Source: Hericium rajendrae
Lineage: Eukaryota > Basidiomycota > Agaricomycetes > Russulales > Hericiaceae
DNA: 64,000 nucleotides
Assembly: GCA_033439255.1 (NCBI GenBank)
Contig: CM065878.1
Span: 62,001-126,000 of the forward strand
Direction of reading: 5' to 3'
Shown: piece by piece, positions 1 to 54,977 of the stretch
Position numbering within the stretch: the first letter of the stretch is position 1
How the letters are laid out: every line of letters begins with the position of its first letter
Notes under the pieces: model-generated
The model's database searches: none
The model's input: the letters and a program-made list of their open reading frames with translations, nothing else
What the model was told of the DNA's origin: nothing
Program-made: the position numbers and the translations under genes

Positions 1-1527
1 AATACCGTGCATGCTTGCAATGTCCTGTCTGCATGCTCAAGCCCCCACACCCACTCACAACACCCTGCACCTGCTCACAATGCCTCAGACATGCATCAGG
101 AACCTTGACAACTTTCTGTTTGACCTGCTGGGTCTGACAGTATCTGACAGAAACTTGTACAAGTAAAATCAGATGCATCAGACAGTGTAAGAAAGCAATT
201 AGTAAAAATAAGACAACATCAAACCCTATCAGACAAGATCAGAAAATTTGACCTCAAGATGCTGTCAGAAATGAGCTCAGAAAGCTCTCAGATTGGTGTA
301 AATTTCAATATTGAGAAATTCTGCTATAATATATGATTAAAGACAAATGACTTATATATCTTATGATAGGTAACAATCTTCAAATGTATCATATGAATCA
401 GATATAATCATTTGAAAAGTGGCTTCAGACTGGTCAGATCCTACAGTAAGGTTAGAAACTGTCAGACTCATCAGAAAATTGTCAACCTTCCTGATGTGCA
501 CGCCACACCTGGTTGCATGTATGCTCCTGCACCTGCTCAACTCAACATGCCCTGCGTGTGTGCACAATGATCTGCACAGGTGCACAACAATCACACATGC
601 GTGACGTGCCATACAGTGCCTCTTCGTGCATGCAGAATGTTCCGCACGCCCGCTCCAGGCCTTCTACACATGCTTGACACCTGCGCATGCCCGACATCCC
701 CCGCATGTGCCCAGCTCCACCTCTGCATGCACACAGATGCCAGTGCATGATGGCACTGCAAGACTCCATCCCACAACAATGCATGCACGACACCCAGCAT
801 TTGCACTCAATGCCACTTGCCTACAACGCCCTGCATGTGCGCATACTCCCGCGTGCCCACTCAACACCCCGCACCCTCCAGATGCTCTGCGTACATGCGC
901 AACGTCCCACACGCATGTACGCAACCTGCGCGCATGCACGGCAGCCCTGACCCCATTTGTGGGCATGGCCACCTGCACGCAGCTACACATGGTCCAGCTT
1001 GCTGTGCATGGACCATGTATGCTGTGCGCGGCCCATGCCTACCCCTGTGCCCTCTGTGCTGGCATTTGTGCATGTCGCACCACCTTTTGTGTGTATGTGC
1101 TGTCTTTTGTGTGTCCGTGCTGTCTTTGCACCTGTGCCTGCACCCTCCACAGTGACTTGCATGCCCTCCGCATCCTGTGCCCTACGCAGTAGCTCGACTA
1201 GCTTACATATGTATGGTAGTAGATTTATTACAATTTATTATGATAAATTCTGACTTGTAATATCTGGTGCTTATCTGACTTGTGGTAGTAATCATAGGCA
1301 TCATAGTAGCCATAGCACACCTTGTTAATCATGATAGCCCTATGTATATCAGACTACAGGCTATGGAGGCTATGATAACCCTATGAATGTCACACTGTCT
1401 GCTATGTAGGCTATGATAGCTCTCATAGCTCTACATAGCTGGATAAGCAAACTTCATAGCTCTGATAGCTCAATGATAGCACCTGTAATGTAACCTGCAG
1501 CTATGTCAAATTCAAATTTCTCAGATG
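1..1527 (+). mobile_element. CATCWG-TIR element, copy 1 (left part outside window)
   Basis: Right-hand part of the non-coding TIR element found repeatedly in this window. It begins inside a GC-rich tract (about 1-93 and 497-1190) made of GCATGC- and TGCACA-like words, passes into a TAGC/CATAG-rich tract (1200-1520), and ends in TTTCTCAGATG at 1527, the reverse complement of the CATCTGAGAAA start of copy B. A MITE is inserted at 94-496. The tract is open in several frames on both strands (for example 626-1192), but the residues are a monotonous Cys/His/Pro/Ala mixture with no domain, so no protein is called. The promoter-like core and hairpin seen in other copies would lie before base 1. Confidence 0.75.
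94..496. mobile_element. MITE with CATCAGGAA termini, copy 1
   Basis: Non-coding element of 403 bp with imperfect terminal inverted repeats of about 25 bp (left CATCAGGAACCTTGACAA, right end reads CATCAGGAAGGTTGACAA on the other strand). It is flanked by TG on both sides, a 2-bp target duplication. A second copy lies at 21897-22277 with AG on both sides. Ends and 2-bp duplications resemble those of the large CATCWG elements it inserts into, so both may use the same kind of transposase (inference). Confidence 0.8.
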
Positions 1528-3440: not shown

Positions 3441-4071
3441 TGATGAAGTGCTTCACATTCTATGAGTTCTGCATGGATCAAAATGCAAAAAATATGGTTC
3501 GAAAGCTATAAATGAGTAGTATTCGATCCACTTGAGAACGAGTGAATCGGTGGAGAATTGATTGAGATAACTAAGAATCAAGCATACTAGGAGGAAAAAT
3601 ACAGAAGTACTTCGTGTTCTACGAGTTCTGCACAGATCAAAATGCATAAAATATGGTTAGAAAGCAATGAATGAGTAAATTCTGATACATCTAAGAATGA
3701 GTGAATCAGTCAAGAACTGACTGAGTTAGCTGAGGATCAAGCATACTAGGGGGAAAATACAGGAATGCTTTGCATTCTGCAAGATCTGCATAGATCAAGA
3801 TGCATAATATATGGCTAGAAAGCGATAAATGAGTAGATTCTGGTGCATTTGAGAATGTGTGAATTGGTCAAGAACTGACCAAGTTACAGTAAACAAAGTG
3901 TAAAAGAAAAAGTCTGGCCAGAGCTAGAATTGAACCTGCAAACTCGTTAGATTGAAGATGTATGATTATATAAGCCAACTGCCTAACGGGCATAGTCATC
4001 GTTTTGGTGTCATTTTCACTATGAAAAGGTGGTATAGAGTAAACGATTCTAAGGAATCATAACTAGTTTTT
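3441..4071 (-). repeat. tRNA-headed repeat with three 158-bp body units, block 1
   Basis: On the minus strand the block starts with a tRNA-like head (3912-4071) that contains an A-box-like GGCAGTTGGCTTATATAATC and a B-box-like GGTTCAATTC. Three diverged body units follow, with period about 158 bp (marker ATTCTRYGAG at about 3455, 3615 and 3773). The outer edge of the head carries the perfect 14-base palindrome GATTCTTAGAATC-type word (here GATTCTAAGGAATC). The body units are related to the 1.5-2.8 kb satellite. A tRNA-derived SINE with a tandem body is the best reading; no functional tRNA fold is claimed. Confidence 0.7.
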
Positions 4072-5589: not shown

Positions 5590-6296
5590 CAGCTTTCTGA
5601 TATATTAGGATGCATTTGAGAACAAGTGAATCGGCTGAGTACTGATTAAGTTAGCTGGAGTTCAAGCATTCTAGGGGGAAAATGCAGAAACAATTCGCAT
5701 TCTGCGAGTTTTGCACCGATCCTGACGCATGAGGTACCATCAGAAAGCTATCAATAAGTAGATTCTGATGCACTTTAGAACGAGTAAATCGGTTGGGAAT
5801 TGACCTAGTTAGCTAGGGTTCAAGCATTTTAAAAGAGGAAAAAAAGAAACACTTTGCATTCTGCAAGTTCTTAACCGATTTGGATGCATAAAATATGATA
5901 GCAAAGCTATAAGTGAGTAGATTTAGATGCATTTAAGAACAAGTAAATCAGTGGAGAATGCACTGAGTTAGCTCAAGTTCAAGTGTCATAAAGGGGAAAT
6001 GTAGAAATTCATTGCATTCCATGAGTTCTGCACAGATCAGGATGCAAAAAATACTGTCAGAAAGCAATAAATGAGCAGATCCAGATGCATTTGAGAACAG
6101 GTGAATTGGTCAAGAACTGATCAAGTTACATTAAATCAACAAAGTTTGGCCAGAGCTGGAGTTGAACCTGCAAACTCGTCAGATCGAAGATGTGTGATTA
6201 TATAAGCCAACTGCCTAATGGGCATCGTCATCGTTTTGGTGTTGTTTTCACTATGAAAAGGCGGTATAGAGTAAACGATTCTAAGGAATCGTAACT
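5590..6296 (-). repeat. tRNA-headed repeat with three body units, block 2
   Basis: Same plan as block 1: three body units spaced 158-159 bp (markers near 5698, 5857 and 6015) and a tRNA-like head at 6145-6296 on the minus strand, with B-box GGTTCAACTCC and the palindrome GATTCTAAGGAATC. Preservation is better than in block 1. The uninterrupted unit around 5863-5900 (AGTTCTTAACCGATTTGGATGC) serves as the empty-site reference for insertion A. Confidence 0.72.
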
Positions 6297-6922: not shown

Positions 6923-9585
6923 CATCAGAGAAAAACCACATAGATATATAGAGCTATATACTCTACATAGCTTATATAACTCCATAGCTATCCTCTTTTC
7001 TATATATTTGGCTATAGAGAGAGGTGTTCTATATAGTGCTATAGATGCTATATAGATATAAAGATAACTATATATGCTATGCAATTCAACTCAGCTATAG
7101 ATACTATATATGTTATATATAATCTATAGGCTATAATTACTTGTTTATCTTATGTAACTTATATATACTATACTTGAATACATAGACTACAAAACAAGTA
7201 ATTAAATTCATAATACAATTGAGCACAAAAGGTTTGAAACTCAATATTGATGATCACACAATAGTAAATGAGGACACATTAAATCATTTCATTGAAAAGC
7301 TATACAAACAGCAACTAAAAATAACACATGATATAAAGTAATATAAAAACTAAGTATACATACTACAAAAAGGTAAGCATGAGTTAGATTCTTACAAAGG
7401 ACTACAAGAAAAGCTTACTAGAATAATAAAAAGTAAAAATCTAATCACCTTAACAAAGACTAGTCAGTAAGTTAACACTAAAAGACTACAGCATAGACTT
7501 ACCAGCATATTAAAAAAGAAAGATATATATTAAGATAATATAAGACATCAGCATAGAATGAAAGACTGTAGAAGAGCATAAGGGTCACTTACCGAAATAG
7601 TGACAAGTAAAGACAACATCGCAGAGATGGTTGTGGTTCAAGAGAAAGAGATGACGCACAATGCATGCAATAAATACATGGGTGCATTGGAGTTCAAATT
7701 GTGGTTTTCGGGAACTGCTGCATGCCACATCAGGGGCTAGCTGTTAAATTTTACTAAGTGCCCTGTGCTGTCCGGGACCGTGCAGTACAATAGGTAAACA
7801 TATGTATCTCATTAAATACATTCTAATTATGTTTTACAGAGCTTACTTTTTTTTTCTTATTTTATTTGATTTTACTCGATTTGTTACATTGCAAGAAACA
7901 ACGAGTCGCGTGTTTGGTGGCGGGAGCACTGAACATGCATCGTTGTGTTTCGTCTTTACTGGTTACCTCTAACTTCTCACTCCCTTCCCTCATTCCCTCT
8001 GCCCTCTCCTTTCTACTGCAGCAACATCAAGGAAATGGGGGGAGGGGAGGGGAGGGGAGGATAGGACTCTGTGAGGGTTTAAAGGTGAGTAAAAGTAGTT
8101 TTTTTCATTTGTTTTTCGTACTAACTTGGGGAGTCTCGCTTGTTCTCGAGTGAGACTCCCCTGTTTTTCCCCTCGGCCATAACCCTCGCACCCCCGCCGT
8201 CCCCTCTGTGTCACCGCCATCGCTGCCATCGCATCGCCGCTCCTGCATCGCTGCCACTGGCCACTCGCACCCCTCACGTTGTGCATGCCCCAGCACCACC
8301 CATGTCGTGCCGCACTGCCAACACAATGCGAGCGGTGCCAATGTGGCATGCGAGCGGTGCCAGCACATGTGCCACGCATCGCTGCGCTGCATCACTGTGC
8401 CCCACACACCATATCACCACTGCCAATGCACCATGCACACCGCACGCCCCAGCGCTGCCCACATCGTGCCGTGCCACCACCGCTCACATCACGCCGTGCC
8501 AGCGCCACCAGTGATGCCAATGACACACCACATGTCATGCCGGTAATGCAATGTGAGCGGCGCCAACACGGCATGTGAACGGCACCAGCACATGTGCTGC
8601 ATGTCGCTGGCCCCACACGCCGCGTCACCACTGCCAATGCACTGTGCATGCCGCACGCCCCAGCGCGCCGTGCCAGTGCCACCAAGATGCACCATGCGCT
8701 GTGCCCCACACACTGTGTCACTGCCACCAACATGCCACGCACTGCATGCCCCAGCACTGCCCATGTCGCGCCGTGCCACCACTGCCCACATCGCACCATG
8801 CCAGCGCCACCAGCGCTGCCAACAATGCACCATGTGCTGCACCGCCAACGCAACATGCGAGTGGTGCCAGCGCGTGTGCTGCACATCGCTGCGCCGAGTC
8901 GCCATGCTCCACATGCCGTGTCACCACTGCCAACATTCCACATCGCTCCGCGTCACTGCTGCTAATGATGCCGCGCACAATGTGTCATCGCCACCAATGC
9001 ACCGTGACAATGCTGCCAACACACTTAACATCATTTTGGTGTGTGGCATTTAGGCCCTTACCTAAGTAGCCTGCCAACGACACGCCAATGCACCGAATGT
9101 GCCAAATGTGCTGCGCTTCGTCTGTGTGCCCAATGCCCTACACTGTCTCTGTGTGAGCTTCCTGTGTTGTACACAGGCCTCTTTCATTACTTTGTTCTGA
9201 CAATGTAGTAGAAATTTTTGTAGATAATCCTATGAATATACAAAATTTGACATATAAAGTTGGAGGGCTATCTGATAGCATAGCAGAAAATGCTGCTACT
9301 GTAATAGAGATAGAAGGCTTAGAAAGATCAAAAGTTCAAAGGTATATGACTCATATATAACTTGTATAGTTTATATAGCCAATATAGCCTATATAGAGAG
9401 CCACTAGAATTATATAGCTTGTATAGTCATTTAACCTAGCTATATAGCACTATATATCTGATACCTGGTGCTATATAGTCTATATAGTCTATATAGTGCT
9501 ATATTGTAAGGTGAGACACATATATAGACCATATATCTTATGTACTTCTAAGTGGTAGCTATATAAATTTAGGTTTTCTCTGATG
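6923..9585 (+). mobile_element. CATCWG-TIR element, copy A (2,663 bp)
   Basis: Complete copy with termini CATCAGAGAAAA and TTTTCTCTGATG and TT on both sides as target duplication. The flanks rejoin to a satellite unit (AGTTC-TT-AACCAATTCAGATGC) that matches the uninterrupted unit at 5870-5900. Inside, in order: CATAG/TATAG tract; AT-rich segment with minus-strand GTAAG donors; promoter-like core about 7600-7900; a plus-strand stem-like TTTGGTGGCGGGAGCACTGAA; intron-like 8085-8133 (GTGAGT, branch-like TACTAAC, AG); hairpin 8128-8161; GC tract 8163-9055 built from repeats of roughly 230-280 bp; and a final TATAG tract. The GC tract is open in five frames but without any recognisable protein. 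Confidence 0.88.
8128..8161 (+). repeat. Conserved hairpin of copy A
   Basis: Stem GGGGAGTCTCGCT pairs with AGTGAGACTCCCC (13 bp, one G:U) around a short loop. It overlaps the AG acceptor of the 49-nt intron-like segment. It takes the place of the GAGAGTATCGCTC stem of other copies: the sequence differs but pairing is kept. Confidence 0.8.
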
Positions 9586-10566: not shown

Positions 10567-13357
10567 CATCTGAGAAAAGGACCACTGGTATATGACACTA
10601 TGTAGCCTACATAGCTCTGATAGGACCATAGGAGTTCTCTTTTCTACATAGCTACTCCATAGCAGTGAGGTAATCTACATAGAGTTATGATAGCTATCAT
10701 AGCTATGATAGCATAGAGTATAAGCTATCATAGCTATCATAGTTGCTATAGCATATAATGACTATCACAGCTATGTCAGCTATGTAATATATCTATGTTA
10801 TCATATTATGCCTAGTTAGTATGACTGCTATCCACTCTATATTGCCTCTGTCTTATATACTGCTTAAAAGTGTCTAAAATATTATTCAAATATTCAAATA
10901 TAGTATAAATTTCAGTCTTGTTGCATCTCAAACATTTAAAACATCGAAAATTAAAAGCATTATATTTAAAACAAAGCTACAAGCATCACTACAGATCTAT
11001 GATACACTACTCAAACCAACACCCCAAGATAAGATAACAAAATATACAAAGATAAGATAAGATAAACTTAAAGATAAAAGATAAATTCAAAGATAAGATA
11101 AGACTTACTTCATAGATCAGAAAAAGCGAAAATAATCTAAGGACAAAGTCAGTATACAAGATACAGATATAGAAAGAAATAAGACTTACTTGACATAATA
11201 AAAGCGAAAGTGTAAAAGTCTACAAAGAATAGTAGGGTTAGTGAACAACAAAACAATATAACAACAACATAACAGCTTATCGAACATCAGAGACTTGAAG
11301 CAGGAGAAGGGAGAGCGCCGAAAGACGAGAGATGGTAGTGGTAAGGAAGAGAGAGAGATAGCACATCGCACATGCCTTATATAGATGTGGCGAGCAAAAG
11401 CCAAATGCGGCTGCTGAGACCGGGCCAGGCAGTGCCGAGCACTTGCATCAGAGGCTAAGTGCCAGATTTTCCTAAGTTCTGTTCATTGGCCAGTAGCTTA
11501 TAGCAGCTGAGTTAGATACTCACCTCATACGGGTTGATGTAATAGATGATTTATAGCTGTTCCCTTTTTTTCAGAATTTAAACCATTTTATTTGATTTAC
11601 TATGCTTGAAACACTCGAACTCGCACGCGTTCGGTAGCTGAAGCACTGAAGGCACATGTCTCATACTATCCTTACCACCACACTCCTCTCTCGTCGTTCC
11701 TCTGCCGTTCCTCTTTCCATCAACTCGTCGGATTGAACGCAGAAGGATCTCGATAGGGTATAGAGGGGTAAAGGCAAGTATAACCAAACTTTTTATTCGT
11801 ATTGTTCGTACTAATAAAGAGAGTATCGCTCATTTTCGAGCGATACTCTCGTTCTTCGACACCCGCAATGCCTCACTCCCCTCCCCTGTCGCCTTCTCTC
11901 TGCCATGTCACCTGTGTCCCGCCCGCTTCTTGAACACGGCGTCGGCAGCCTCGATCCCCTGCGCATCACCAACAGCCGTGCACGAAACCGGCTGCATGCC
12001 TGCAAGCTCAACAACTCACGCTTCGGCCCCCCACGCCCTCGCTCACACCTGCGAACCTCCAGTTGCCCCATCCGCTGACGATGGCGTCTGCATCCGCATC
12101 GTGCTGCCTCGTTGCCGTAGCAACGGGCACGACACGTCATTCGCCCGGCTCCAGCACCCTCGGATCCCCTCAACAACCCCCCTGCACGTCCTCAACAGGT
12201 TCATGTGGGTCCATCTTGCCGTCGACAATGTGCTCACGGCTGAAACACTTGGCTGGGCGCACACGGCCATGCACGATGACAAGCCTGCGTGGTCTGACCT
12301 GCACGAGCAAGGCCAAGCAAGACCATGCCGACTGGTGACATGGCCACGCATGATCCACCACACCTCGCCCTGCCCTGAGCATGCCTGTGTGCTGACGCCA
12401 TGCCCCGCATACGTCCGCTCCAGCTTCAACATGCAAGCGTGCGATCAGGCGGGTCCACACAAGCACACCCACGGCCAGCACGACTCGTGCACCCCGCTTG
12501 GCCTGGCATGGCCTGTGTGCCAACACCCCGCCCTGCACATGACTCCCGCACGATCACCTCGCCCCGCGCATAGGCTGCGTGACCGTGCTGACTCGCGCAC
12601 GGCCATGCACGATCTGCGACACCCCACCCCGCCTGATGCGTGACCTGTACATCGGCGTTATGCCCCACACACGGCCCCCTCGCCCTATGCACATGCATAC
12701 AGCCAGGCACGGCCGCATCAGCTCGCATGCGGCCACGCACGATCTGCGCACCTCATCTCATCCCATGCATGGCCCGTGCGCTGATGCCTCACGCCGCACA
12801 TGGTTGCCTCGCCCCATGCGCGTGCGTATGGCCGTACGGCCATGCCAGCTTGCGCACAGCCACACACGGCTCGTGCATCCCGCTTCATTGCCCTGCCCAT
12901 CCACATCATCATCTGCCCGACAGCATGCATCAGATGGGTGAGAGTGCACCTATCCATGCACACACAGATGGTGATGTGCAAGAGGTGCGAGGGTGCGAGG
13001 TCTATTCAGAACCTTCGTTTACTAGTTAGATGGTGTTAGATTTGTCTACAGTAGTCTACACCTTGAATATAAGAAATCTTTGACTTAAATGTCTTGACTA
13101 CCTAGGTGACCCATCATAAGGACTATAGTAGCCATAGTAGTCATAGTTTCCCTTGGTAAGTATCATAGTCCTATGTATATGGCACCCCTAGCTATAGAGG
13201 CTATGGCCACCTATGTATTTAACACTTCATGCTATAGAGGCTATCATAGGCCCCATAGCTCCACATAGCTGAATAGTCCAAGTTCATAGCCCTCATAGCT
13301 CACTGATAGAGCCCATAATATGACTTGCTGCTATATAAAAAACAGATTTCTCAGATG
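10567..13357 (+). mobile_element. CATCWG-TIR element, copy B (2,791 bp)
   Basis: Complete copy with termini CATCTGAGAAA and TTTCTCAGATG and GA on both sides. Order: CATAGCTATGATAG tract; AT-rich segment with two minus-strand TTTTCGCTTTT words each followed by GTAAG (about 11105-11215); TATA-like CCTTATATAG near 11376 (minus-strand direction); plus-strand core with TTCGGTAGCTGAAGCACTGAA; intron-like 11774-11819 with a GC rather than GT donor; hairpin 11819-11850; GC tract 11851-13020; and a CATAG tract ending CTATATAAAAAACAGATTTC. No transposase or other protein recognised; the open frames in the GC tract overlap on both strands. Confidence 0.9.
11819..11850 (+). repeat. Conserved hairpin of copy B
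   Basis: Perfect 13-bp stem GAGAGTATCGCTC / GAGCGATACTCTC with loop ATTTTC. It begins at the AG of the 46-nt intron-like segment. Confidence 0.9.
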
Positions 13358-17459: not shown

Positions 17460-19070
17460 CGTGCAGAGCATCGGCCCTCTTCCCCCAAGTGTAAGACTTA
17501 CCATCACTATAAAAAGCAAAAATTTTCAAAACAAATATATATTAGTATTGAAAGATAACAAAGAAAACATAATAAAGCTTACCAAACTAATAAAAAAGCG
17601 AAAATCTACTAAACAATTCATAAGACATCAGTATAAGACATAACAAACCTTACCTAGTAAATATACAAAAGTACTAATATAAGTATGAAAGCATCAGCAC
17701 AAGCCATAAGAGATTAAAGAATACAAACTTACCTTAATAGAGATAGCAACGACGAGCAACCAACGACGATGAGCGAGCAACCAACGACGATGAAGCGTCG
17801 ACGTGGCAAGACATGGTGGAAGTAAAGAGCAAGAGGCAAGGCACATCGCGTGAGCCTTATATACAAATCTCAGGCGAAGCCAAGAATCGTGGCTGCTGGG
17901 CGCTGCCAAGCGATGCATCAGAGACTGGGCCTGCAGAGTTGACTAAGTTGACTTTGTTACCCGGACATGTACAGTACAGTAGATACATAGTGTTCTCATA
18001 TATTTCGATACCATGTATCAATTGTACTTGTGGTCTTTTTTTCAGAATTGATGTGATTTTGTATGATTTCTTGGAGGTCGAACAACATAGCTTCGCTTGT
18101 TTGGTGGCTGAAGCACCGAATGCACATCGACTTGTTTCATCCCTCTCTCACTTGTTGTCTCTCCTCGCTCATTCCCTCACTGCCTCCATCCCTCATTCCA
18201 GCTCGTTCCTCATTCATTCTGAGCTTGTCAATTTCGGTCTGGAGGGCTGAGTAGTAAGCAGAGGGCTAGCAGGTGAGTAAAATCAACTTATATTTGTGAT
18301 CTTTGCACTAAAACAGAGAGTATTGCTCATTTTTTGAGTGATACTCTCAATATATTGTTCCTCTCGACTCTTCACGACCCCACCGCCTATTTTGCACCCC
18401 CTCTGTCCCTTCCATGCCCTGTCTCTGTCATGTTCACATATGTCTGCACCACGTCTGTGCCCTGCACCACAGCTCGTACTTCCTGTGCTCGACCCCAACA
18501 TTCTGCGACTCCCCCGTGCAGTTCTGATCTTGTGCACGGTCCCTCACCCTCTTTGGGCACACCAAGGTGTGCAGGCCACAGCGAACATGCATGCATGCAC
18601 CACGTGATGCTGTCTGCACACCTTCAATGACGTGAGCGCACTGGCCATGTCAACACCCATGCTTTCCATGTCTGCACGCATCAGAGTCCCGACTCAAATG
18701 TCATCTGCTCGTGCTCCCAGCCCTCAAGCAGCTCCATCTGGCCTCCACACTCCTGCCATGTCACCCACATGACGAATGGTTCCAGCATGCACCACTGACA
18801 CTCCTCACGTGTGCAATCTCCCTCATTCGCACCCGACCCCCATCCATGCATGCAATTGCGAGCACAATGACTGGCACCTGCATGCAAAGCTCGTTCTCAC
18901 AAGCAATGACCCATACACACATGCAATACCCTGTTCGTGTGCAGAACACCTCACCCTTGCCGGTCCTGCCCCACACATGCGCGCATGCCCGCTGAATGTA
19001 TCGTGTGCCCATTCAACACTCTGCGTGCATGCACGATGCCCTGCACATGCACGTGGCACTCCATGTACGT
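17460..19070 (+). mobile_element. CATCWG-TIR element, core of copy D (interrupted)
   Basis: Core only: minus-strand TTTTTGCTTTTT and TTTTCGCTTTTT words each followed by GTAAG (about 17490-17600), TATA-like CCTTATATAC near 17857, plus-strand stem TTTGGTGGCTGAAGCACCGAA near 18100, intron-like 18273-18316 (GTGAGT ... CACTAA ... CAG), hairpin 18316-18348 and a GC tract from 18350. The GC tract is interrupted at 19070 by the short-LTR element, continues 21463-21551, is interrupted again by copy C and the hAT element, and appears to run on after 40069. No left or right TIR was identified for this copy. Confidence 0.7.
18316..18348 (+). repeat. Conserved hairpin of copy D
   Basis: GAGAGTATTGCTC pairs with GAGTGATACTCTC (one T:G pair); T-rich loop. 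It lies at the 3' end of the 44-nt intron-like segment. Confidence 0.85.
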
Positions 19071-19231
19071 TGGACTGGCCCAAGGGCTCAGCCTGAAGCT
19101 AAGGTGATGATAGTGCAGACCATGGCTACTCTACATGAGGCGAGCCTGCTATGGACATGCTGACTAAGCCTCGGCAACTTCTGGAGCTCCTCCTAACCTC
19201 TGGATCTAGGAGCCCTCAGCTCCCTAGTCCA
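19071..19231 (-). repeat. 3' LTR of the short-LTR element
   Basis: 161 bp, TGGACT...AGTCCA, identical to the LTR at 21302-21462. Confidence 0.93.
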
Positions 19232-21301: not shown

Positions 21302-21462
21302 TGGACTGGCCCAAGGGCTCAGCCTGAAGCTAAGGTGATGATAGTGCAGACCATGGCTACTCTACATGAGGCGAGCCTGCTATGGACATGCTGACTAAGC
21401 CTCGGCAACTTCTGGAGCTCCTCCTAACCTCTGGATCTAGGAGCCCTCAGCTCCCTAGTCCA
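21302..21462 (-). repeat. 5' LTR of the short-LTR element
   Basis: 161 bp, identical to the partner at 19071-19231; followed by ACGT target duplication. Confidence 0.93.
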
Positions 21463-21896
21463 ACGTGCATAGCACCCTGCATGTGTGTAAAATGCCCCAT
21501 TTGCATGCAAAATGCTGGCAATGCCTTGCATGCATGTGCGTGCCTGCCCAACATCTGAAAAATGTACCAATGCTATGTTGTCCTATGTTGCTTACATAGA
21601 TCTCATAGTTTCATAGCAATCCCCTTTTATACATAGGGCCCCATAGCTGAAAGGCAGTCTATGGCAAGCTATATAGTCAAATAGGATTGCTATGTCTAGC
21701 TATGATAGCTATGATAGCTATTAGAGCATAAGACAAAGCTATGATAGCTATAGAGACTATGTTGGTTATGCTATGTATGCTCATTATCATATCATATCTA
21801 GCACAATAGGATTGCTATCTAATCTATACCAACTCTGCTTTATATACAACTTTCTCATGCTATAAAGATTTTATTAAAATCTCAGAAAATTTATAG

Positions 21897-22277
21897 CATC
21901 AGGAAGGTTGACAATTTTCTGATGAGTCTGACAGTTTCTAACCCTACTGTAGGATCTAATCTGTCTGAGATTACTTTTCAAATGACCATATCTGATTCAG
22001 CTTATATATTTAAGAGTTAACATCTATTGTTAGCTATAGTAGTTATCCATCTCTAACTATCCACTATAGCATAATTTCTGATATCCAAAATTTACATAAA
22101 ACTGAGAGCATTCTGAGAAATTTCTGAGCTCAGCTTGAGGTCCAACAAACTGATAGTGTCTGATAGTGTCTGATGCTGGCTTATACCATCTGATTCATCT
22201 GATTTCACTTGCACAAGTTCTGACAGATGCTATCAGATGGCCGCAGGTCAATCAGAAAGTTGTCAAGGTTCCTGATG
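21897..22277. mobile_element. MITE with CATCAGGAA termini, copy 2
   Basis: 381 bp, ends CATCAGGAAGGTTGACAA and (other strand) CATCAGGAACCTTGACAA, AG on both sides. In the interior it shares GACAGTTTCTAACC, AGATCAGA-like and CATATCTGATTCA words with the copy at 94-496, in opposite orientation. Non-coding. Confidence 0.85.
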
Positions 22278-23113
22278 AGCCTCAATAAGCTTATCACACA
22301 TCGAACAGAACAAACATTGAAAATTTTATAAACAATATATTTCAAATCATATCTACAAAGAATATTCTAAAGCTATCTAAATTACAAGTCAATACATCAA
22401 CACATAAGATATAAACACAAGTCATGAGAAGGCTTATCAATCATAAGAAAAAGTCGAAAATAGTCTAACATAAATGACACATCATCAACATGAGTTACAA
22501 CAGATATAAAAGAAGACTTACCTCAAAAAGGACAAAAAGCGAAAATTTGGGCCTATAGAATCAACACATCAACAAGTTAATACTAACGAACAACAGATAA
22601 AAAAATAACAAACTTACCTAAGATAAGAAAGTTGAAGACGAACGAGAAGAGGAAGGAGGGCGGACGACAGGAGATGGTAGTGGTTGAGAGACAAGAGAGA
22701 ACACGCGTCATGTGAGCGTTATAAACCCACGCCCGGGTCTGCCTGGCGGAGCCCGAATTGTGGCTGTCAGATGCTGCCGGGAGCCGTGGCTGAGGCTAGC
22801 TTTTAGATCTCCTTAAGTTAGCTGGACTGTCCAACAAAATAGAGTAGAGTACATACATTTGTAGCTCATCCATTGTGCTTAAGAAAATATTATATGCTTC
22901 ATATGTTTTTTTTTCTAATTTGAATGATTTTATTCGATTTGTTGAAGTCAAAAATGTCAGACGTGCGAGTCAAGTGCTGTGGCTCGACGCGTGACTTTTC
23001 TCTTCATCTCCCCTCATCTCCCCTCCCCTCTTCCTCTACACAAGCAATGCACGGTGTCGATCAATTGACCATCGGGAGAGTGAGCAGGAGGACCAAGGGC
23101 CTCTAGGTGAGTA

Positions 23114-23413
23114 GATATCATATTATTTTTTTTTGTCTTCGTGCTAATAAAACAAGTATCGTTCATTTGCAACGAGCGATACTCATATCATTCCACGACC
23201 GACCACGAGCCCATCGCACTGCACCCCACTCCCTCGACAATGCTGTCAATGACGCTTGTCGAGGATATCATATTATTTTTTTTTGTCTTCGTGCTAATAA
23301 AACAAGTATCGTTCATTTGCAACGAGCGATACTCATATCATTCCACGACCGACCACGAGCCCATCGCACTGCACCCCACTCCCTCGACAATGCTGTCAAT
23401 GACGCTTGTCGAG
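23114..23413 (+). repeat. 150-bp tandem duplication containing the hairpin
   Basis: 23114-23263 and 23264-23413 are direct tandem repeats that look identical by eye. Each contains the T-rich end of the intron-like segment, the AGTATCGTTC / GAGCGATACT hairpin (23155-23183 and 23305-23333) and the start of the GC tract. Confidence 0.92.
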
Positions 23414-23445
23414 TCTCGTTGCCATGGCAACGAGACTCGACAAGC
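23404..23445. repeat. Perfect 42-bp palindrome
   Basis: Reads the same on both strands from GCTTGTCGAGTCTCGTTGCC through its complement, with no spacer; centre CCATGG. It overlaps the end of the second 150-bp unit. A weaker GTTGCC-GTA-GCAAC hairpin occupies a similar place in copy B near 12110. Confidence 0.93.
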
Positions 23446-25343
23446 ATCATACAACGTGCATTCACTCTCTGCCGCGCCCACGCAACACCCTTGTTTCAAT
23501 GCTCCAAGCCATGCTGCGTGCACGTGCACATCCCCACGTGACCCCGGCCACATCCGCACAGTCATGCACGCCGGTGATTGCATGCGCACGGCCCCGCTCA
23601 TGCAAGTGGGTCCACATATGCCAACAACTGCGTGCGCACAACCTCAGATGACCGCACCAGCATGTATGTGCACACATGCAATGCAGGTTGCTGTGCCCGG
23701 CCTTGTCAACATGCGTGCGGTCACCCACGATCCCGCCCTTGCCTTCTCGCAGCCCCGCCCTCCTTCTCGCGGCCCTGCGTCACCTTCTCATCGCTCCGTC
23801 CTGCCTTCTCATCGCCCTGCCCCACTCCACCTTCTCACCACCCCACCCTGCCTGCACATGGCCATGGATGACCGCACCAATGCACACATGCAGACGACCG
23901 TGCCAGCCCATGCACGCACGTCACGGGCAGCCGCGCACGGCCCTGCCAGCACGCGAGCTGTCACACACAGTACCGCCCCGCTCCCACATGGCCGCAGACA
24001 ATCGCACCAGTGCGAGTACGTACGTACAGCCCTGCTGGCGTGCGGGCTGTCACATTTGGCCTTGTCTGCCAACGCAGAGCCACGCAGGCCGGCGACTGAG
24101 CGTGCATGGCCGCACCAGTGCGTGCACGCACCCATGCACGGCGTGGGCAGCCGTGCGTGGCTCAGTCTGCGCACGCACGGCCATACTCACCATGCCAACA
24201 CACGCACGCGACGATGGTGCAGGCAGCCACGTATGACGCTGTCTCTGTGCGCGAAACCACGCACGGTGCTGTCTCCATGCCCGAGGCCACGCATGCCAGC
24301 AACAGTGCGTGCGACCGTGCATGGGCAGTCCCATCTGCGCGTGCGGAGCCCCGCACACCGGCGACGGCGCTCGCACAGTGCAGACGGCCCTCTGCGTGCG
24401 TGGAGACATGCATGCTGGCGACAGTGTGCATGCAGAGCCATGCATGCCAGTGACGGCGTGCACATGGTAGCCCCGATGACGGCTGCCACGTTGTCTGCGC
24501 GTGCTGTTCTGTGCACACACGAGGTCTATAACCAGGCACTTAGTTACTTGAGCAATATAGTAGACTGCTTGTATAGTGTGATCCTTTGAATTTAAGAAAA
24601 TTCTTTGGTGCCTATCTCATTGAAGCTAGCCAGTATAGTAATCATAGGAGCCATAGCTCTTCTTACTAAGTACTATAGCTCTATGTATTTAATACTTCTA
24701 GCTATGGAGGCTATATATCTTACACTGCCTACTATGGCAGCTATGGCAGCTCTCATAGTTCTATATAGCTTGACAAGTTAAAGTCATAGACACCATAGCT
24801 CACCTATAGAATCCATAGTTTGACCCTTTACTATATAAAAATCAGATTTTTCAGATGAACATCCCTAGTGAATGGCATGGGTAACCCTTGGGTACTTTTG
24901 AGCTAACTCATACCCATACCCATCAAAACCCACACTCATGCTGTGGGTATGGGTTTTCTGTGGGTTAGGTATGGGTAGGATATGAGTTCATGGGTAGCTG
25001 TGGGTTTATGGTTTACCCAAGGGTTGTAACATGTATTGAGAGACTATAGTCTTGTTATGTCATAAATATCTCAATATAAGCAGACACACATCAATAACAT
25101 TGTAGCAGTAAACACTGATCAATCAAAAAAGTCAAGAAAGTTCCATTATATTGTATCTCTTTTTCATCTCAGACTCTTTATTATCTATTTTATTATCTTT
25201 TGGAGCATCTGCCATGTTAGCCACCCTTAATACATTAGTCTGATTGTTGCTTGATTTAGTATATAGTATGGTTTGCATCTTGATAATATACTTTGAACTA
25301 ATCATTCTCAATATAGAAAAACCCATAACCCATGGTATGGGTA

Positions 25344-26699: not shown

Positions 26700-26705
26700 G
26701 GGTAT

Positions 26706-27329
26706 TGTGACGCAACGGTCGCAAGTACCGGGAGTCCTCACCGTGGCTAGCGGGCGTTGGAGAGCAGAGGTGTGTGCGGTCCTCGAGTCCAAGCGAGGCG
26801 CCCGAGTCAAAGTCGAACGAGAAGTCTCAGTTCGGCTCGACAAAGACTCCTAGGAATCGGAGGGATGGAGGACAAGGCAGGCGAACTCGCCTGTTACCTC
26901 GGACGACGCGTCGTGGAGAGAAGAAGAAGACGAGGCGGTCCACTCACCAAAGACGGCCTTTGGCCGGATTTGCGTATGTGGGCGCGCTTTGACTTCCTCG
27001 TTCAGAAGCAAGGCGCGGGCACTCGTTCGAAGCGCGCGCGCAGACGTCGTTCGAGAGAAAGGAAAAAGCAAGAAGAGAGAAGTAAGATTCGGAAGATGAT
27101 AGACAATGATTGATGATCTTTTTCCTACACAAGACGTACACTAAATACGGAAGAAAATAAGATTGTAGGTCCGCCCTCAACTGTACAGTAGGTCGGCCGG
27201 TGTGGCTTGACTACCTAATCGGGAAGGCGGCGCTTCCGGGCCCGGCTACCTCGAGATTCCGTGTTGGCGCGTGATGGCTCCCGGCGCCTGGCGTCGCATG
27301 ACATCACTCGGCACCCGGCATCCGTTACA
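26706..27329 (-). repeat. 3' LTR of the gypsy element
   Basis: 624 bp, starts TGTGACG and ends TTACA; overlapping short open frames inside it are not genes. Confidence 0.95.
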
Positions 27330-39263: not shown

Positions 39264-39333
39264 ATCGAAAGCTTTGAGATTTGGAGGAAAGAAGGTCGGC
39301 TAGGGGTGAAGGACTTCCGGATATGTCCACCTT

Positions 39334-39957
39334 TGTGATGCAACGGTCGCAAGTACCGGGAGTCCTCACCGTGGCTAGCGGGCGTTGGAGAGCAGAGGTG
39401 TGTGCAGTCCTCGAGTCCAAGCGAGGCGCCCGAGTCAAAGTCGAACGAGAAGTCTCAGTTTGGCTCGACAAAGACTCCTAGGAATCGGAGGGACGGAGGA
39501 CGAGGCAGGCGAACTCGCCTGTTACCTCGGACGACGCGTCGTGGAGAGAAGAAGAAGACGAGGCGGTCCACTCACCAAAGACGGCCTTTGGCCGGATTTG
39601 CGTATGTGGGCGCGCTTCGACTTCCTCGTTCAGAAGCAAGGCGCGGGCGCTCGTTCGAAGCGCGCATGCAGACGTCGTTCGAGAGAAAGGAAAAAGCAAG
39701 AAGAGAGAAGTAAGATTCGGAAGATGATAGACAATGATTGATGATCTTTTTCCTACACAAGACGTACACTAAATACGGAAGAAAATAAGATTGTAGGTCC
39801 GCCCTCAACTGTACAGTAGGTCGGCCGGTGTGGCTTGACTACCTAATCGGGAAGGCGGCGCTTCCGGGCCTGGCTACCTCGAGATTCCATGTTGGCGCAT
39901 GATGGCTCCCGGCGCCTGGCGTCGCATGACATCACTCGGCACCCGGCATCCGTTACA
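39334..39957 (-). repeat. 5' LTR of the gypsy element
   Basis: 624 bp; all 12 differences from the partner LTR are CpG to TpG or CpA. Confidence 0.95.
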
Positions 39958-43640: not shown

Positions 43641-44438
43641 GAATTATTTTATTTTGTCCGATTGGGTTCTGAACCCTCCCTAAGTTATTGGTACAAGTTG
43701 CAACCCTCCCTCCTGTACTTACTGGTACAGGTTGAGAATGGGTTACAGGGATGCCTTGCACCCCGCTCAACATCCCGCACACTCCTTGCCATACTCGTGT
43801 GTGTGCAATGACGACCCCTGCACATGCGAGGATGCCCCGCACACCCATGCGATGCACAGCATCTGGGCCCAACATCCAGTGCTTGCGTGCCATCCTGCAT
43901 GCATGCGCCATGCTCCGCCCTTGCACACAATCCTCGTGCTTACATGCCATGCTCTGCCCACGTGCCTTCATGTTCATGCCTATGCAGGGCCAGTTGCACC
44001 ACCATTGTGCTTGCATGCTCAATGCTTAATGGTGCTTAGTGGTGCCAACCGGTACTCAACATAGTTATATTTAGATTTTGTAAAGCATTTGTACTCATGA
44101 ATAAAATAAAAGAAATAGATTTCAGTACCTTTAGTGTAACTTTATCACATGTATGCTCTCAATGATTTGTATAGTTGCTGCATAACCCAGAGATATCATA
44201 GCATATAGCATGCACTTACAAGACAATATAGTGAACATAGGCTACATAGGCTCTATAGCAATTAGAGACATGTCCATAGCTTCCATAGTTGTGCTTGCTA
44301 TCTATATAGGCCTACATAGATGGCATATAGGGCTATGTAGCCTATATAGCTGCTATAGATCTATATATCTGTATATGCTATGTATATAGTTTAGATAATT
44401 GTGACTAGTAGCTATATAAATTTGAGATTTTTCAGATG
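43641..44438 (+). mobile_element. CATCWG-TIR element, right part of copy G
   Basis: GC tract (about 43740-44030), an AATAAAATAAAAGAAATAGA segment, a CATAG/TATAG tract and the right terminus GAGATTTTTCAGATG ending at 44438. The order and the AAATAGATTT...AGTGTAACT words match copy E at 49943 in reverse, so G and E form one subfamily. No core or left end is visible. Confidence 0.65.
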
Positions 44439-45856: not shown

Positions 45857-46539
45857 CATCAGGAAAAACTGCAAATCCATCAAACATGCTTACCGATCAT
45901 CAGAAGTTTGATGGGCACTACTGATGTCAGATTAGCACTACTGATCTAGACTTAGTGATGTAATAGAAGAATCATGACCACTGTAATTTAGCCGTAGCTT
46001 CTGTAGCATGTAATTATGCAAAGCACATTTTGATCAAAGAATCTGTAGACATCATCTGCCTGCTGTAGCTATGATGCACCTGCTGTAGCTGTAGTAGACA
46101 ACATATTAACATGCATTATATCATTGACTTTAACTATTCTATGATTCTTATATACATATACCATTAGTTAGCAACATAAACATGATATATATGATCAACT
46201 CTTATGAGTTTACTTAAGACTGTATAGAGTTGAGTGTTGCCGCATTGTGTGAGTAGCAGGACGAAGAATGTTGCCCAAATATAGGCATGATTTGTCATTT
46301 CAAGTGTGGCTGTACTGGAGCGCTACGACTCCACAAGTTGAAACATTGAAGTTGTCAAGACTGGGTTCAGGGGAACAGTGAAGCCATCCAAGTCACCCCA
46401 AGGGATCAAGGATCAAAGAGCAGAGGATGTCATAGAGAGTAGAGACAGGTTGAGAATGTCTAGGGTACAATGGGACTGGAGAGTCAAGTGGACAAACTGA
46501 GGAAGCCAGTCAGGAAGGTAGCCCTATATATACTGGAAG

Positions 46540-46700
46540 GATAGCCCAAAGGTGAACAAGGGATATCCTAAAAGGAGAACAAGGGGAAGGAGAACAAGGG
46601 ATGTCCCAAAGGGGAACAAGGGATATCCTAAAGGGGAACAAGGGATATCCTAACAGGGAACAAGGGGATATAACAAGGGAGTGTCCATATAGGGAACAAA
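46540..46700. repeat. Minisatellite of GGGGAACAAGGGATATCCTAA type
   Basis: Six to seven imperfect units of about 19-27 bp built on GGGAACAAGGGATATCCTAA. No gene; a 79-codon minus-strand frame here is repeat text. Confidence 0.8.
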
Positions 46701-46899
46701 GGGAATGAAGAAGACCAATGGGCGATTCATGACAGAAGTCCTGTCTCAAGGTAAGTTCACAGTATATATTGATACTAATGCATATGGAATTATAGGTTCT
46801 ACTACTGCCCTTGCCTCTGGGCTTTGTATCTGGGCCTTGGCTCCAAAAAATGGTTCTGATAGGTACGTCAAATAATCTTCTGAATCATAGCACAAATGT

Positions 46900-47600
46900 T
46901 TCTCTCTAGACCTCAAACCTTTGTCGATTTACACGATCTTGGTGTCGTTCGAATCATGCTCATTGTAGCTTTCGAACGAGCCCACATGCGAGGCATTTGG
47001 ATAAGTATTAGGTGAGTTACCTGTCTTATTCTGATAGGTACTTACTGATAGAAGGATCTTGGCATAGCGCAACGAGCAGGGCATGCATCGGCTCGTATAT
47101 AGACTTGTTCAAATGCTATGATTATAGCTTTTGAATAAGCCTGCATATGAGTCGATCCAACCAGCCGTTGCTCCGCAGCAAGACATTCTCTCCTCCTGGT
47201 AAGGCGAAATTTGCCTTTTAGCAAATTTGTCATATCTCGATCAATACAGTACGTATCAACGACATTTTAACAGTTTTGGAAAGCACTGATTCATACCTTT
47301 CCAATAAGCCTGCATACATGTCGATAGGACCAGGTAGTGCCATGCAACAGCAAGATCTCCTGGATGATGTGGCAAAATGTGTTTTTGCCATATCTTGGGG
47401 GATATATTGTACGTATCACAGCTCTCATAGGCTCGGCTGAAAGTTCTAATTTGTAGCTTTCAAATATGCTCTCATGTGTCCATATTGGTGGACATTTCAT
47501 CATGCAAGAGACAAACTTGTCTCATCATCCCCCCTCCTAGGCGAGTTTTTCTTCACTTTCTCAAATCTCCATCATTTTCTATGATCTTAGGCTTATTTTG
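46900..47600. repeat. Diverged tandem repeat with 150-180 bp spacing
   Basis: Four spaced copies of a TAGCTTTCGAACGAGCCCACATG-like word (abridged TAGCTTTYRAA...GCYYRCATG) near 46965, 47120, 47300 and 47448, each preceded by TACGTATCA- or TGATTATAG-like sequence. Similar words occur near 16545. No gene. Confidence 0.55.
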
Positions 47601-48351
47601 CTCACACAATACAGGGTTTTCATTTTATTATATTAATCAGGTAAGTACTGGATGTGTGGTACTGCAATATTGATACCTCTGATTTCTTAGGTGTCACCTT
47701 GGAAGTTCCCACGCCCTCAGCAGAGTGGCACAGAGCAGGATGAAGAATCTTGCCCAAATTTGGGCAAGATTCTGAGCAAGATTCTTCGCCACACGGAGAG
47801 GGCATGCAGTGCAGTGCAGTGCATGGGTGAGGCACAGCGTGGCATGGATGTGGCTGTGGGTGCAATTCTGTGAGCATATGCATGGTGCAATGGATGGGCT
47901 TGTGGGTGAGGCATGGCGCAGCACAGTGGATGGGCACATGGGCAAGGCATGGTGCAGCACAGCAGGTAGGCACATGTGCACATCAGAAGCATGGGGTGCA
48001 GGCATGGGCACAGGATGTGGGCACACAGGTGAGGCACAGCACAGGCATGGTGCAATGTGTGGTCACACGGGCAGGTGCAGTGTGCAAGGCATGATGCAGG
48101 AGAGGCAGGGGTGAGCATAGTGTGGCATGTGAGCACAGGATGGGTGCGGGGTGGTAGGTGGTGTGACACATTGGTGGGTGACAAGGGGCATGCAGTAGGC
48201 AGTGCGATGCATCAGTGGGTGGTGTGATACATCGGTGGATGGTGCAATGCACGTGATAAGTGGGAGAGGCATGTGGTGGTGATGTCGAGGGGGGGCCAAA
48301 GCAGGAGGGGGCAGTGACGGAAAGTGACTCAAAGGGACAGGGAAGGAAATT

Positions 48352-48381
48352 GAGAGTATTGCTCGAATGAGTGATACTCTC
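48352..48381 (-). repeat. Conserved hairpin of copy I
   Basis: GAGAGTATTGCTC / GAGTGATACTCTC type stem, 12-13 pairs including one G:T, short loop; at the 3' end of the 45-nt intron-like segment on the minus strand. Confidence 0.85.
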
Positions 48382-49567
48382 AGTGTTAGCACAAATAAAC
48401 AAAGAGATTTTTTTTTTACTTACCTGTCAGGCCCTCATCATCCTATAACTGTCTACCAGTGTTTGATTCCACATGAAAGAGGGAGGAAGGAAGGAGGAGA
48501 GGAGAGATGGGAGGGGAGTTGATGGTAGCAGCTGCAAGAAACTTCAATGTGTGTTAAGTTGTTTAACCACTGAATGTATGTGAGTTCAAATGTTTGTAAT
48601 GTAGTAGATCAAATAAAATCAGGATAAATCTGAAAAAACAACAGTAGCTATATTTCATTAGTTTAATTCATTTGAATGATGGAACTATCTAGCTACTGTA
48701 CTATAAGCTATTGGACAGTGACACGAACTTAGTGAAGTCTGCTGTCTTGGTCTCTGATGCAGCACCTGGCAGCACTCGGGCCAGGTTGCAGCAGCTGCAT
48801 TTTGGGCTCTGCTCATGATATCTATATAAGGCATGCATGACATGCAACCTCTCTTTCTTTCCGACCCCCATCATCTCTTCTGTCATTGACTCAAGCTTTT
48901 GCATGATGAGTCTTCCTTTTCTTATGTCTAGTAATCTTTGTGCTTATGTCTTACCCTTACTATGGATGTATACATTTTCGCTTTTTTTTTAATTTTGGTA
49001 AGTCACTTTTAGTCTTTGATGCTTCACTAACGAGCTTTTACTACTTGTTAGATATTGCTTTTTTTGTGATGTTTGTAAGTGTTCATTTGAACCTTTTGTG
49101 ATGACCTTTATTAATGTTTGTTTGTCTTACAGTCTCTATACTTTTGAATCCTCTCATAGTATAGCCTCTTATAGTATCATGTATTTGCTAGTTAATAAAT
49201 TTTGATTGTTGTTTGATTAAATCCTTATGAACTGCATAAATTTTTTTTATTGACTTGGATGTTATATTGAGTAGTCAAGACCTGCAAATATAACAGACTG
49301 TATATGTGCAATAAATCTATTGTAGCATGTATAGACTACTGTAGTTGTGGTAGCACATTATAGCATTTGTAGAAGATTGCAGATTTTGAGAACTTGACTT
49401 GTCTACAGTAGCAAACCTGTACTATAGTGAACTACAGTAGACAATATCTGTCTACTGTAGGTATGAAAAATAAGAAGAGTCCTACAGACACTATGTCAAC
49501 TACTCTGACTACTGTAGCTACTGTAGCCAATGGTAGTTCACAATAGTACATACAGTTTTTCCAGATG

Positions 49568-49942: not shown

Positions 49943-50610
49943 CATCTGAGAAAGTCCAAATTTATATAGCTATCAGCCATTGTTATCTAAGCTATATGAG
50001 CTATATACAAGCCTTATACAGATATATAGATCTATAGTGACTATATAGACTGCATAGCCCTGTATGTGATCTATGTATGCTATATAGCTACTTAGCATAG
50101 CTATGAGAGCTATAGACATGTCTCTAACTGCTATAGAGCTTATGTAATCTATGTCAACTATATTACCTTGTAAGTCTAAGCTATATGCTATGACATCTGT
50201 GAGATATACAGCAACTATACACATTATCCAAAGTATACATATGATCTAACTCACACTAAGGTAGAAATCAAATCCATTTTATTATTATTTTCATCATAAC
50301 TATGTACAAAGTTACAAGATAATTTAATTATAACTATGAATGAGCACCAGCGCTGGCACCTGTTGAGCGCGCAGAGGGCGAGAAGGTGGCACGCGAGTGG
50401 TGTACATAGGCACGTGCACATGCGGGGTGGGGCAGATCGTGCGAGGGTGGGGATCGTACGAGGGTGGGGATTGTGCGCGAGGGCGGGGCGTGTCGCGTGC
50501 ATGCGGGGTGATGTGCGTGCAGGGTGATGCGCGAGATTGGGGTGTTGGATGCAGATGTGGGGCGTTTTGCGCAGGGGCACGGCATTGAGCTGCATGTGCT
50601 GTCGCGCTGA
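49943..50610 (-). mobile_element. CATCWG-TIR element, right part of copy E (minus orientation)
   Basis: Begins CATCTGAGAAAGTCC at 49943, then a TATAG/CATAG tract (49965-50230), an AT-rich link and a GC tract (50340-50600). It is the reverse counterpart of copy G, and the two face each other across the Helitron remnant. No core or far end was found; the KOW-like gene region follows. Confidence 0.65.
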
Positions 50611-52280: not shown

Positions 52281-54977
52281 CATCAGATAAATGTGTAAGT
52301 GGTACATAGCTCTATAAAGTCTATATAGATTTCATAGTTCCATAGCACTGCCCTTTTCTCTATAGCCAGCATAGCTAAAGGGGAATGCTATGTAGTGCTA
52401 TGAAGCTAAAGGGTGATGCTATGAAGTGCTATGATAGCTATAATAGCTAACTATGTAGCTATGATAGTCTAGCTAGCTATGAAAGCTATAAGTGTCTATG
52501 AAAGCGGGGAAAGCTATAAGGCTTATGTGTCTTATATATTCTACATTCAGTATGTGTCTCATATATCTTACATTTAATATGTGTCTTACATATTCTATAT
52601 TCAATATCATATTAAAGCAATAAAATCTGTTGAAACTATGAATATTTTTTACAGTCATATCAGAATTAGTAACATATGATCACACAAGTATAAACTATTT
52701 CAATGCATTAAGAGTATATTGATATCATAAAAACTAATACTAATTAAAAAGCAAAAACATAAGTAAGAAAGTAAGAAAGTAAGAAATAAGATAAGATAAG
52801 ATAAGTAGTACAAGATAAGATAAGTAGTACAAGATAAGATAAGATAAGATAAGTAATCAAAGGTAAAAAAAAAACATTAGTCTTGAAAGATAAAGATAAC
52901 ACATGAAAACTTACCAAAGTAACAAAAAGCGAAATCTGAAAGACAACTCAAAAGATATTAGTATTAGTATGAGCAATAAGAAAAAACAATGAAAGGTTAC
53001 CTTAAAGACAACGAACAAAGTAAAGAATGATGACGAGCAAGCAAAGCACGTCGACGAAGGCGTCGACGTGGCAAGAGACAATGGGAGTTAAAGAGCAAGA
53101 GGCAACGCGTGTCACGCGAGCCTTATATACGAATCCCGGGCGGAGCTGGGATTTGTGGTTGCTGGGCGCTTGCCGAGCGTCGCGTCAGAGACTGGGTGCT
53201 AGACTTTATTATGTTGATGCTGCTGCTCAGCAATTCACGGTGCAGTAGATACATAGAATCCTCATTAATTCTGGTTTACTGTATGATCTATCATAGTATT
53301 CTTTTTCTCTGAATTGTTACGATTTTACTTGGTTTGTTAAAGCTCGAACAACGTAGCTTCACTCGTTCGGTGGCTGTAAGCACCGAATGCGCGTCGAAGT
53401 CAGTCTTGTCCCTACCACCCTCACTCCCCTGTCTCGCCCATTCGCCATCCCTCTTCTCGCTCCCATCGGATCGAACACCGGAGGAGGATAGTCAGATGCC
53501 GAGGGCCTCAAAGGTAAGTAAAAAAAGTCTCAATTCATCTATTCATACTAATCTAGAGAGTATCGCTCGTTCGACGAGCGATACTCTCGACTTCTTTCGT
53601 CCTCCCGCGCCCTCATCCCCTCTCGCCTCTGACTGCCACCTATCCCGCAACACCCTGCCCTCCGCTGACCTCGCCGCCATGCCGCCTCGCCGCCACGTCG
53701 TGTCGCCGCCACGTCGTGTCGCCGCCACGTTGCTAGCACCCAGCACGTCGCCTCCAACGACCATGATCAGCGGAGTGCGCACGGTCGTCCGCGACCCGGG
53801 ACGGGCACGCCAGCGCACGCACGTCGCGCGGAGCCCTGTCCGTCCTCGCGACGTCTACGCCATCGCGCCTCGCGTGCACGCCTGCCGCATTGCGCACGGG
53901 CTCGCGGTAGCCCGACGTTTCGTGCCTGGCCCTGCGCCTCGTGCACGGCCCCGCCACCCTCGACCCTCGCCCACGCCCCTCCACGTGCCTCGCGCTTTCT
54001 GCGTGCAGGTTACCGTGTCACGCACGAACCTGCGGCAGTCTAGTGCCTCGCGCACGGGCCCGTGGCCGCCCGACACTTTGCGCACGGACCTGCCACCCTC
54101 GACGCCTCACGCACGCCCTCGATGCCTCATGCACGCCCTCGGCGTCTCGCGCACAGACCCTGCGCCTTGCGTGCAGGCTGCCGCCTCACGCACGAGCCCG
54201 TGGCAACCCAGTGCTTCGCGCACGGGCCCGCCGCCCTCGACGCTTCGCCCACGTGCCCTGCGCGCCTTGCGTCTCCTGCACGCAGGCATGACGCATCGCA
54301 CACGAGCCCACGGTGGCCCAAGATCTTGCGCACGGGCCCCGCGCCTGCGTACAGGCCCGCCGCCTGGCGTACGGGCCCCGCACCTCCTGTGCGCACGTCT
54401 GCCGCATTGTGCACGGGCCCGCTGCCACCCAGCGCCTCGTGCACGCCCCGTTGTGCCTCGCGCATGGCCCTCCCGTCTCGCGCGCGCAGGCCTGCCGCGC
54501 CTCGTGCGTGTGCGCCTCGTGTCACGCACGTCGGCCAGTGCGCGCACTCTCGTGTACGGGCCCCGGGCCCGCGACGGCCTCCCGCGCCGTGGATGCATGC
54601 CCGCATTGGCCCTAATTACTTATTTACTTTTAATATAGTAGAATTAGCTGTTGTTTATTACTCCTGAGCCCATAATTTAAATATATTTTCAACCTAGACA
54701 ATTGGCTTAAGGTGCTCTTGCCTTAGTATATTTTGGGGTTCTAGGTATGGTATGATAGGAATCATAGCATTGATAGCAACCCTATAATGTTATATAGCTA
54801 GCATAGCTGTCACTCAAAACTACATAGCTCTATATACCCACCACCAACAGCTATAGAACCTATGATAGGTCTTATAGAGCTATAAAGCTGTGCTGCCAAA
54901 ATACATAGAGTGCATAGAACTATCATAGGAGCCATAACATTGGCTAGAAGCTATGTAGAAAACTGATTTTTCTGATG
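52281..54977 (+). mobile_element. CATCWG-TIR element, copy F (2,697 bp, best preserved)
   Basis: Termini CATCAGATAAAT and TTTTTCTGATG. The flanks read CT and CA, so the 2-bp duplication is not clean here. Order: CATAG tract; three 29-bp ATGTGTCT... units (52520-52610); AGATA runs; minus-strand TTTCGCTTTTTGTTAC followed by GTAAG near 52915-52930; TATA-like CCTTATATAC at 53121; plus-strand stem TTCGGTGGCTGTAAGCACCGAA near 53365; intron-like 53514-53555 (GTAAGT ... TACTAAT ... AG); hairpin 53556-53588; GC tract 53590-54610 still full of CGCGCACG; and a CATAG tract. The 434-codon frame at 53334-54638 is Arg/Pro/Ala repeat text open on both strands and is not called. Confidence 0.85.
53556..53588 (+). 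repeat. Conserved hairpin of copy F
   Basis: Perfect 15-bp stem GAGAGTATCGCTCGT / ACGAGCGATACTCTC with loop TCG, beginning the base after the AG of the intron-like segment. Confidence 0.93.

Follow-up and report, generated by a model that had tools for sequence, protein, structure and literature searches.

Four repeats, A, B, C and I, and probably a fifth, J, in a 64,000-nucleotide stretch of the genome of the Agaricomycete Hericium rajendrae (C1:62001-126000, hereafter the window) are, with a probability that we put at about 85%, non-autonomous DNA transposons of the PlavakaB type, moved by Plavaka transposase whose gene lies elsewhere. The kind itself is already known: according to the available part of its description, published in December 2025, PlavakaB has CATCA..TGATG ends and duplications of 2 or 3 bp (PMC12730594), so the original prediction was wrong in holding that no described family fits, while its nearest idea for the source of the transposase, Plavaka, is supported. 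What is found here is a set of non-autonomous members that are long and whose conserved interior was not expected. Placing numerous protein-less mushroom repeats with PlavakaB by their ends and duplication makes them annotatable and allows their transposase to be sought.

Elements, ends and copy number

Four complete elements lie on the plus strand of the window: A (6923..9585, CATCAGAG ends, TT/TT duplication), B (10567..13357, CATCTGAG ends, GA/GA duplication), C (21552..24857, CATCTGAA ends, AA/AA duplication), and I (45857..49567, CATCAGG/CATCTGG ends, AA/AA duplication), in which the flank match reaches 3 bp (AAA/AAA). The coordinates and flanking dinucleotides first proposed for them were verified. 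J (52281..54977, plus strand) is a probable element with a left end like those of B and C and a right end paired by position only; it has no duplication (flanks CT/CA). Partial relatives comprise block D, from the interior of a partial copy (17486..18451, plus strand), two partial copies with A-like ends at 44438 and 49943 (43816..44438, plus strand, with 70% identity in reverse to 49943-50582; and 49943..50582, minus strand), and one whose right end is B/C-like and borders a satellite array (1265..1527, plus strand). Arrays of a 158-bp satellite are located at 1528-2795, 3451-3886, and 5609-6128, with A and other pieces in or beside them. Two MITEs of the same kind were also found, one nested in C (21897..22277, CATCAGGAA ends, AG/AG duplication) and the other at 94..496 (TG/TG duplication).

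Comparison of copies showed that the ends of A, B, C and I coincide with the limits of homology. Among plus-strand loci, 31 match the A, B or I query from its first base; each of these matches opens with CATCWG, and the bases ahead of it vary from locus to locus. Among 41 end pairs, all ends read CATC(A/T)G, save CATATG (B_C11) and GATCAG (S_C1b), and the view of these repeats as a family of TIR elements with a shared internal plan was upheld.

The element families are numerous in the genome, which was searched over 46.8 Mb in 19 contigs. The left end of I had 23 matches and its right end 21, while for B the first-look candidates numbered 552 with the left part and 193 with the right end, 40 being scored in each case. 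The I-type pattern CATCAGGAAAAACYG, allowing at most one mismatch, occurred at 144 places in the genome, against eight for the reversed pattern.

Target-site duplications and an empty site

Genome-wide flanks bore out the variable 2-bp target duplications. The flanking 2 bp were identical in 32 of 41 pairs (37 with both flanks fetched plus the four window copies; the pair C1:622208-628686 is outside this table), against 143 of 1640 mispaired left and right flanks (8.7%). By class, agreement was 11/12 for B, 14/17 for I, 3/8 for the I-like class of 2.3-2.7 kb, and 4/4 for the window. The nine pairs without a 2-bp match were I_C5b, I_C8a, I_C2c, S_C1b, S_C2b, S_C5a, S_C5b, S_C5c, and B_C12b, and of the five pairs that failed in the 2.3-2.7 kb class, three represent one site in duplicated DNA. 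After rows with shared flanks were collapsed by hand, 30 of 37 pairs kept the match (binomial 9e-26). Matching pairs span 12 different dinucleotides, TA being present in two of the 32, and the longest flank match among the 41 pairs is 3 bp. Some I pairs are widely spaced, up to 18.7 kb, presumably owing to later insertions. The two points on which the finding could have failed, an absence of 2-bp duplications genome-wide and ends lying off the borders of homology, were both checked, and it survived.

There is also an empty site for A, the neighbouring satellite copy at 5773..5972 (plus strand), to which the joined flanks of A align and which has a single TT where two surround A. Agreement over 2 bp was likewise seen in six of six fetched copies of a 401-bp MITE and in one 3.8-kb unit; this 401-bp MITE (G000, CATCAGGAACCTTCAAA ends, e.g., C2:3265627-3266027) is present in high copy number.

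Plavaka genes in the same genome

The genome contains many Plavaka genes, and CATCAG-type ends lie upstream of Plavaka genes. The Plavaka transposase family PF18759 had 132 matches here and none in 14 control genomes. One fetched gene scores 366 bits, and the proteins nearest to a fetched Plavaka protein, among the matches listed, come from mushroom-forming fungi (best 55% identical). At the 13 listed places matching CATCAGTAAACCTCAAA with one mismatch (CATCAGTAAACC ends), a Plavaka domain in the same direction stands 6.9-12.3 kb inward in eight and one in the opposite direction in another, and four have a Plavaka domain on the outer side, within 13 kb. Since eight of the 13 CATCAGTAAACC ends lead inward to such a domain, Plavaka genes here appear to be accompanied by CATCAG ends. 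Among the 10 exact CATCAGTAACCCTCAAA places (CATCAGTAACCC ends), the domain is inward in one and outward in two. The gene-linked ends (CATCAGTAA.., with TCTGA repeats) resemble those of A, B, C and I little beyond CATCAG, and in the single fetched unit that is bounded by gene-type ends on both sides the flanks match over 3 bp (TAG), not 2 bp.

An CATCAGTAACCCTCAAA end stands ca. 4-5 kb downstream of the 366-bit gene. Because the best similarities (ca. 77%; L017, L019-L021) start at most four bases from this end, a J-like element seems to be the place where the Plavaka unit was inserted; some weaker similarities start up to 80 bases before this end. A candidate for an autonomous I-like element is the locus L078 on C8, with an end 67-72% identical to the I end over 241 bp and 1.6 kb from a Plavaka domain; it has no clear right end, the candidate one being located in a stretch repeated elsewhere. 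A degenerate Plavaka piece adjoins the right end of one I copy (C12:1361507).

The original prediction had also proposed looking for an autonomous member between the exact ends of A, B, C or I. No such member, and no transposase moving these elements, was found among the ends listed. In particular, no Plavaka gene stands between the B- or I-type end pairs listed, in a search that covered 81 PF18759 matches out of 132 (the remaining 51 being fragments next to these), 40 scored places per B end, and 100 of the 144 I-type pattern places.

Classification and proposed movement

In the available part of its description (PMC12730594), PlavakaB shares with A, B, C and I the CATCA..TGATG type of ends, duplications of 2 (or 3) bp, and occurrence in Agaricomycotina. 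The duplications here are those of the 32 of 41 pairs and the empty site of A, and the CATCTG form of many ends departs from the published CATCA. A further difference is that A, B, C and I have no transposase: PF18759 was absent from the eight ORFs analyzed and from the B and I end pairs listed, as expected for non-autonomous copies. The elements described here also differ from PlavakaB in being long, with most pairs spanning about 2.3-3.9 kb, and in having a common TATA/micro-exon-like block. Marasmius oreades likewise has a Plavaka-rich mushroom genome, whose non-autonomous elements were delimited by their ends and duplications; in the available part of that report these are mostly <1 kb, compared with 2.3 kb and more here (PMC8290104). 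The link of A, B, C and I to Plavaka lies in the kind of end and duplication, together with the C8 locus.

It is unlikely that these repeats belong instead to another, undescribed superfamily with an unrecognised transposase, their PlavakaB-like ends being merely common to the wider CACTA/Transib group. The lack of a Plavaka gene inside the B- and I-type pairs listed would be in keeping with it, and so would the CA..TG ends and 2 to 5 bp duplications that the accessible text gives for most of that group (PMC12730594). However, at least four end bases (CATC) and the 2-bp size match PlavakaB in particular, as far as that text describes it, and CATCAG ends appear to accompany Plavaka genes in the same genome.

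Derivation from Tc1/mariner, in which 2-bp duplications also occur, or from CACTA/EnSpm is highly improbable, given the rarity of TA among the 12 dinucleotides duplicated here and ends that read CATC, not CAC(T), with a duplication of 2 bp of varied sequence. Deletion derivatives of CACTA/EnSpm of the dSpm kind do resemble A, B, C and I in their short TIRs, dense subterminal repeats, and related transposase, but they differ in their CAC ends and 3-bp duplications. The available part of the published classification gives CAC..GTG ends and a 3-bp duplication for EnSpm, and the 8-bp duplication of Zisupton and the 7-bp one of Kyakuja that it reports exceed the longest flank match found here (PMC12730594).

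Under the PlavakaB assignment, A, B, C and I are most likely passive cut-and-paste elements moved in trans. Plavaka transposase supplied by other loci would bind the terminal and subterminal repeats and cut at the CATCWG ends, and the element would be inserted at a 2-bp staggered cut, which would produce a 2-bp duplication of any sequence.

A conserved block with promoter- and splice-like features

One would not expect promoter- and splice-like modules in a DNA transposon that is non-coding. In B, they lie within 11104-11430 of the window (minus strand). A TATA-like box facing the left end (11376..11384, minus strand) has a column identity of 0.99 in 22 non-redundant copies, and all 30 B pieces contain a loose TATATAA pattern. 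The micro-exon-like modules (11104..11280, minus strand) contain two ATTTTCGCTTTT cores (11200-11211 and 11122-11133, minus strand) with donor-, branch-, and acceptor-like signals around them. Toward the nearer end, the box comes first and then the modules, so that the block faces outward, and each module runs from a branch-like CTRAY through YAG and the core to a donor-like GTAAGY, usually 10-13 nt past the core. At the donor position of exon 1, B itself has GATAAG and most relatives have GGTAAG. Modules are also present in C (core at 22546, minus strand), D (17605 and 17523, minus strand), and I (48974, plus strand). They were absent from the Plavaka gene pieces L127, L128, and L078, and neither A nor J in the window has a core within one mismatch.

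Among 82 unique core contexts, which are not independent because the copies are related, a donor was found in 65, an acceptor in 71, a branch motif in 69, and all three in 50, versus 7%, 55%, 20%, and 0.9%, respectively, at shifted control places. The core plus donor occurred at 302 genome places and the reversed pattern at none; among 100 places listed, it stands 593 bp from the right end in five I copies. Mean column identity was 0.96 at TATA, splice-like, and core positions versus 0.85 in the rest of the block, and the 0.938 of the splice-like positions was reached by three of 430 circular shifts, for features chosen post hoc from an alignment already viewed. A palindrome GAGAGTATCGCTC/GAGCGATACTCTC (11819..11850) that borders the conserved block formed a hairpin in 30 of 33 folded sequences; it was absent from A in the window and from the B-type loci L040 and L043. 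Element C contains a perfect 150-bp tandem duplication (23114-23413) that doubles the palindrome.

We lean towards seeing the block as a relic shared through common descent, such as the 5' portion of a gene since lost, and not as a transcription unit that works. The relatedness of the copies, the choice of features after the alignment had been seen, the missing core in A, and the fact that no ORF follows the block all fit a relic. On the other side stand the higher identity at the key positions, the few circular shifts that equal the splice-like value, the occurrence of modules in B, C, D and I, which are ca. 60-65% alike, and their absence from the three Plavaka gene pieces. More tentatively, these features may mark a conserved outward unit that is transcribed by Pol II, contains a TATA box and micro-exons in tandem (branch point, AG, ATTTTCGCTTTT core, GTAAGY) but no ORF, and whose spliced RNA, or splicing into neighbouring DNA, might aid the spread or tolerance of the element; this is a doubtful reading drawn from sequence patterns. 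RNA data from the same fungus would reveal any working non-coding transcription unit kept by a non-autonomous element and any reach of that unit into neighbouring genes. We found no description of such a block in Plavaka elements in the available parts of the open-licence PMC literature.

Coding capacity, the GC-rich middle, and neighbouring repeats

As first proposed, the elements carry no recognisable protein: no Pfam family matched any of eight ORFs taken from A, B, C, D, I and J. No Rfam families or tRNAs were detected in the window. The 30 B loci have in common a left part of ca. 1.3-1.7 kb, plus the right end where the locus extends that far. Between them, B has a GC-rich, fast-changing middle (approximate limits 11978..12970) with internal degenerate repeats. 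A coding function for it was rejected, as no codon phase stands out clearly among substitutions in six copy pairs and, of 102 indels, 20 have lengths divisible by three; its longest ORF has 224 aa, versus a median of 153 and a 95% point of 247 in shuffled sequences. Captured host genes are also unsupported, the middle of B aligning with many of the 29 other loci and only the two sides aligning in others.

In five close copy pairs (L025/L026, L046/L052, L028/L029, L036/L037, and L031/L033), differences are mainly transitions, mostly in CpG/TpG context; one example has 120 transitions (97 of them in this context) versus four transversions. This concentration suggests that the repeats are methylated.

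Other repeats accompany the elements in the window. Identical 161-bp direct repeats lie 2.2 kb apart at 19071-19231 and 21302-21462, the second just to the left of C. A pair of 625-bp direct repeats (26705-27329 and 39333-39957, 98% identical) flanks long minus-strand ORFs in the manner of an LTR retrotransposon, with 160-bp repeats just outside them at 25331 and 26546.
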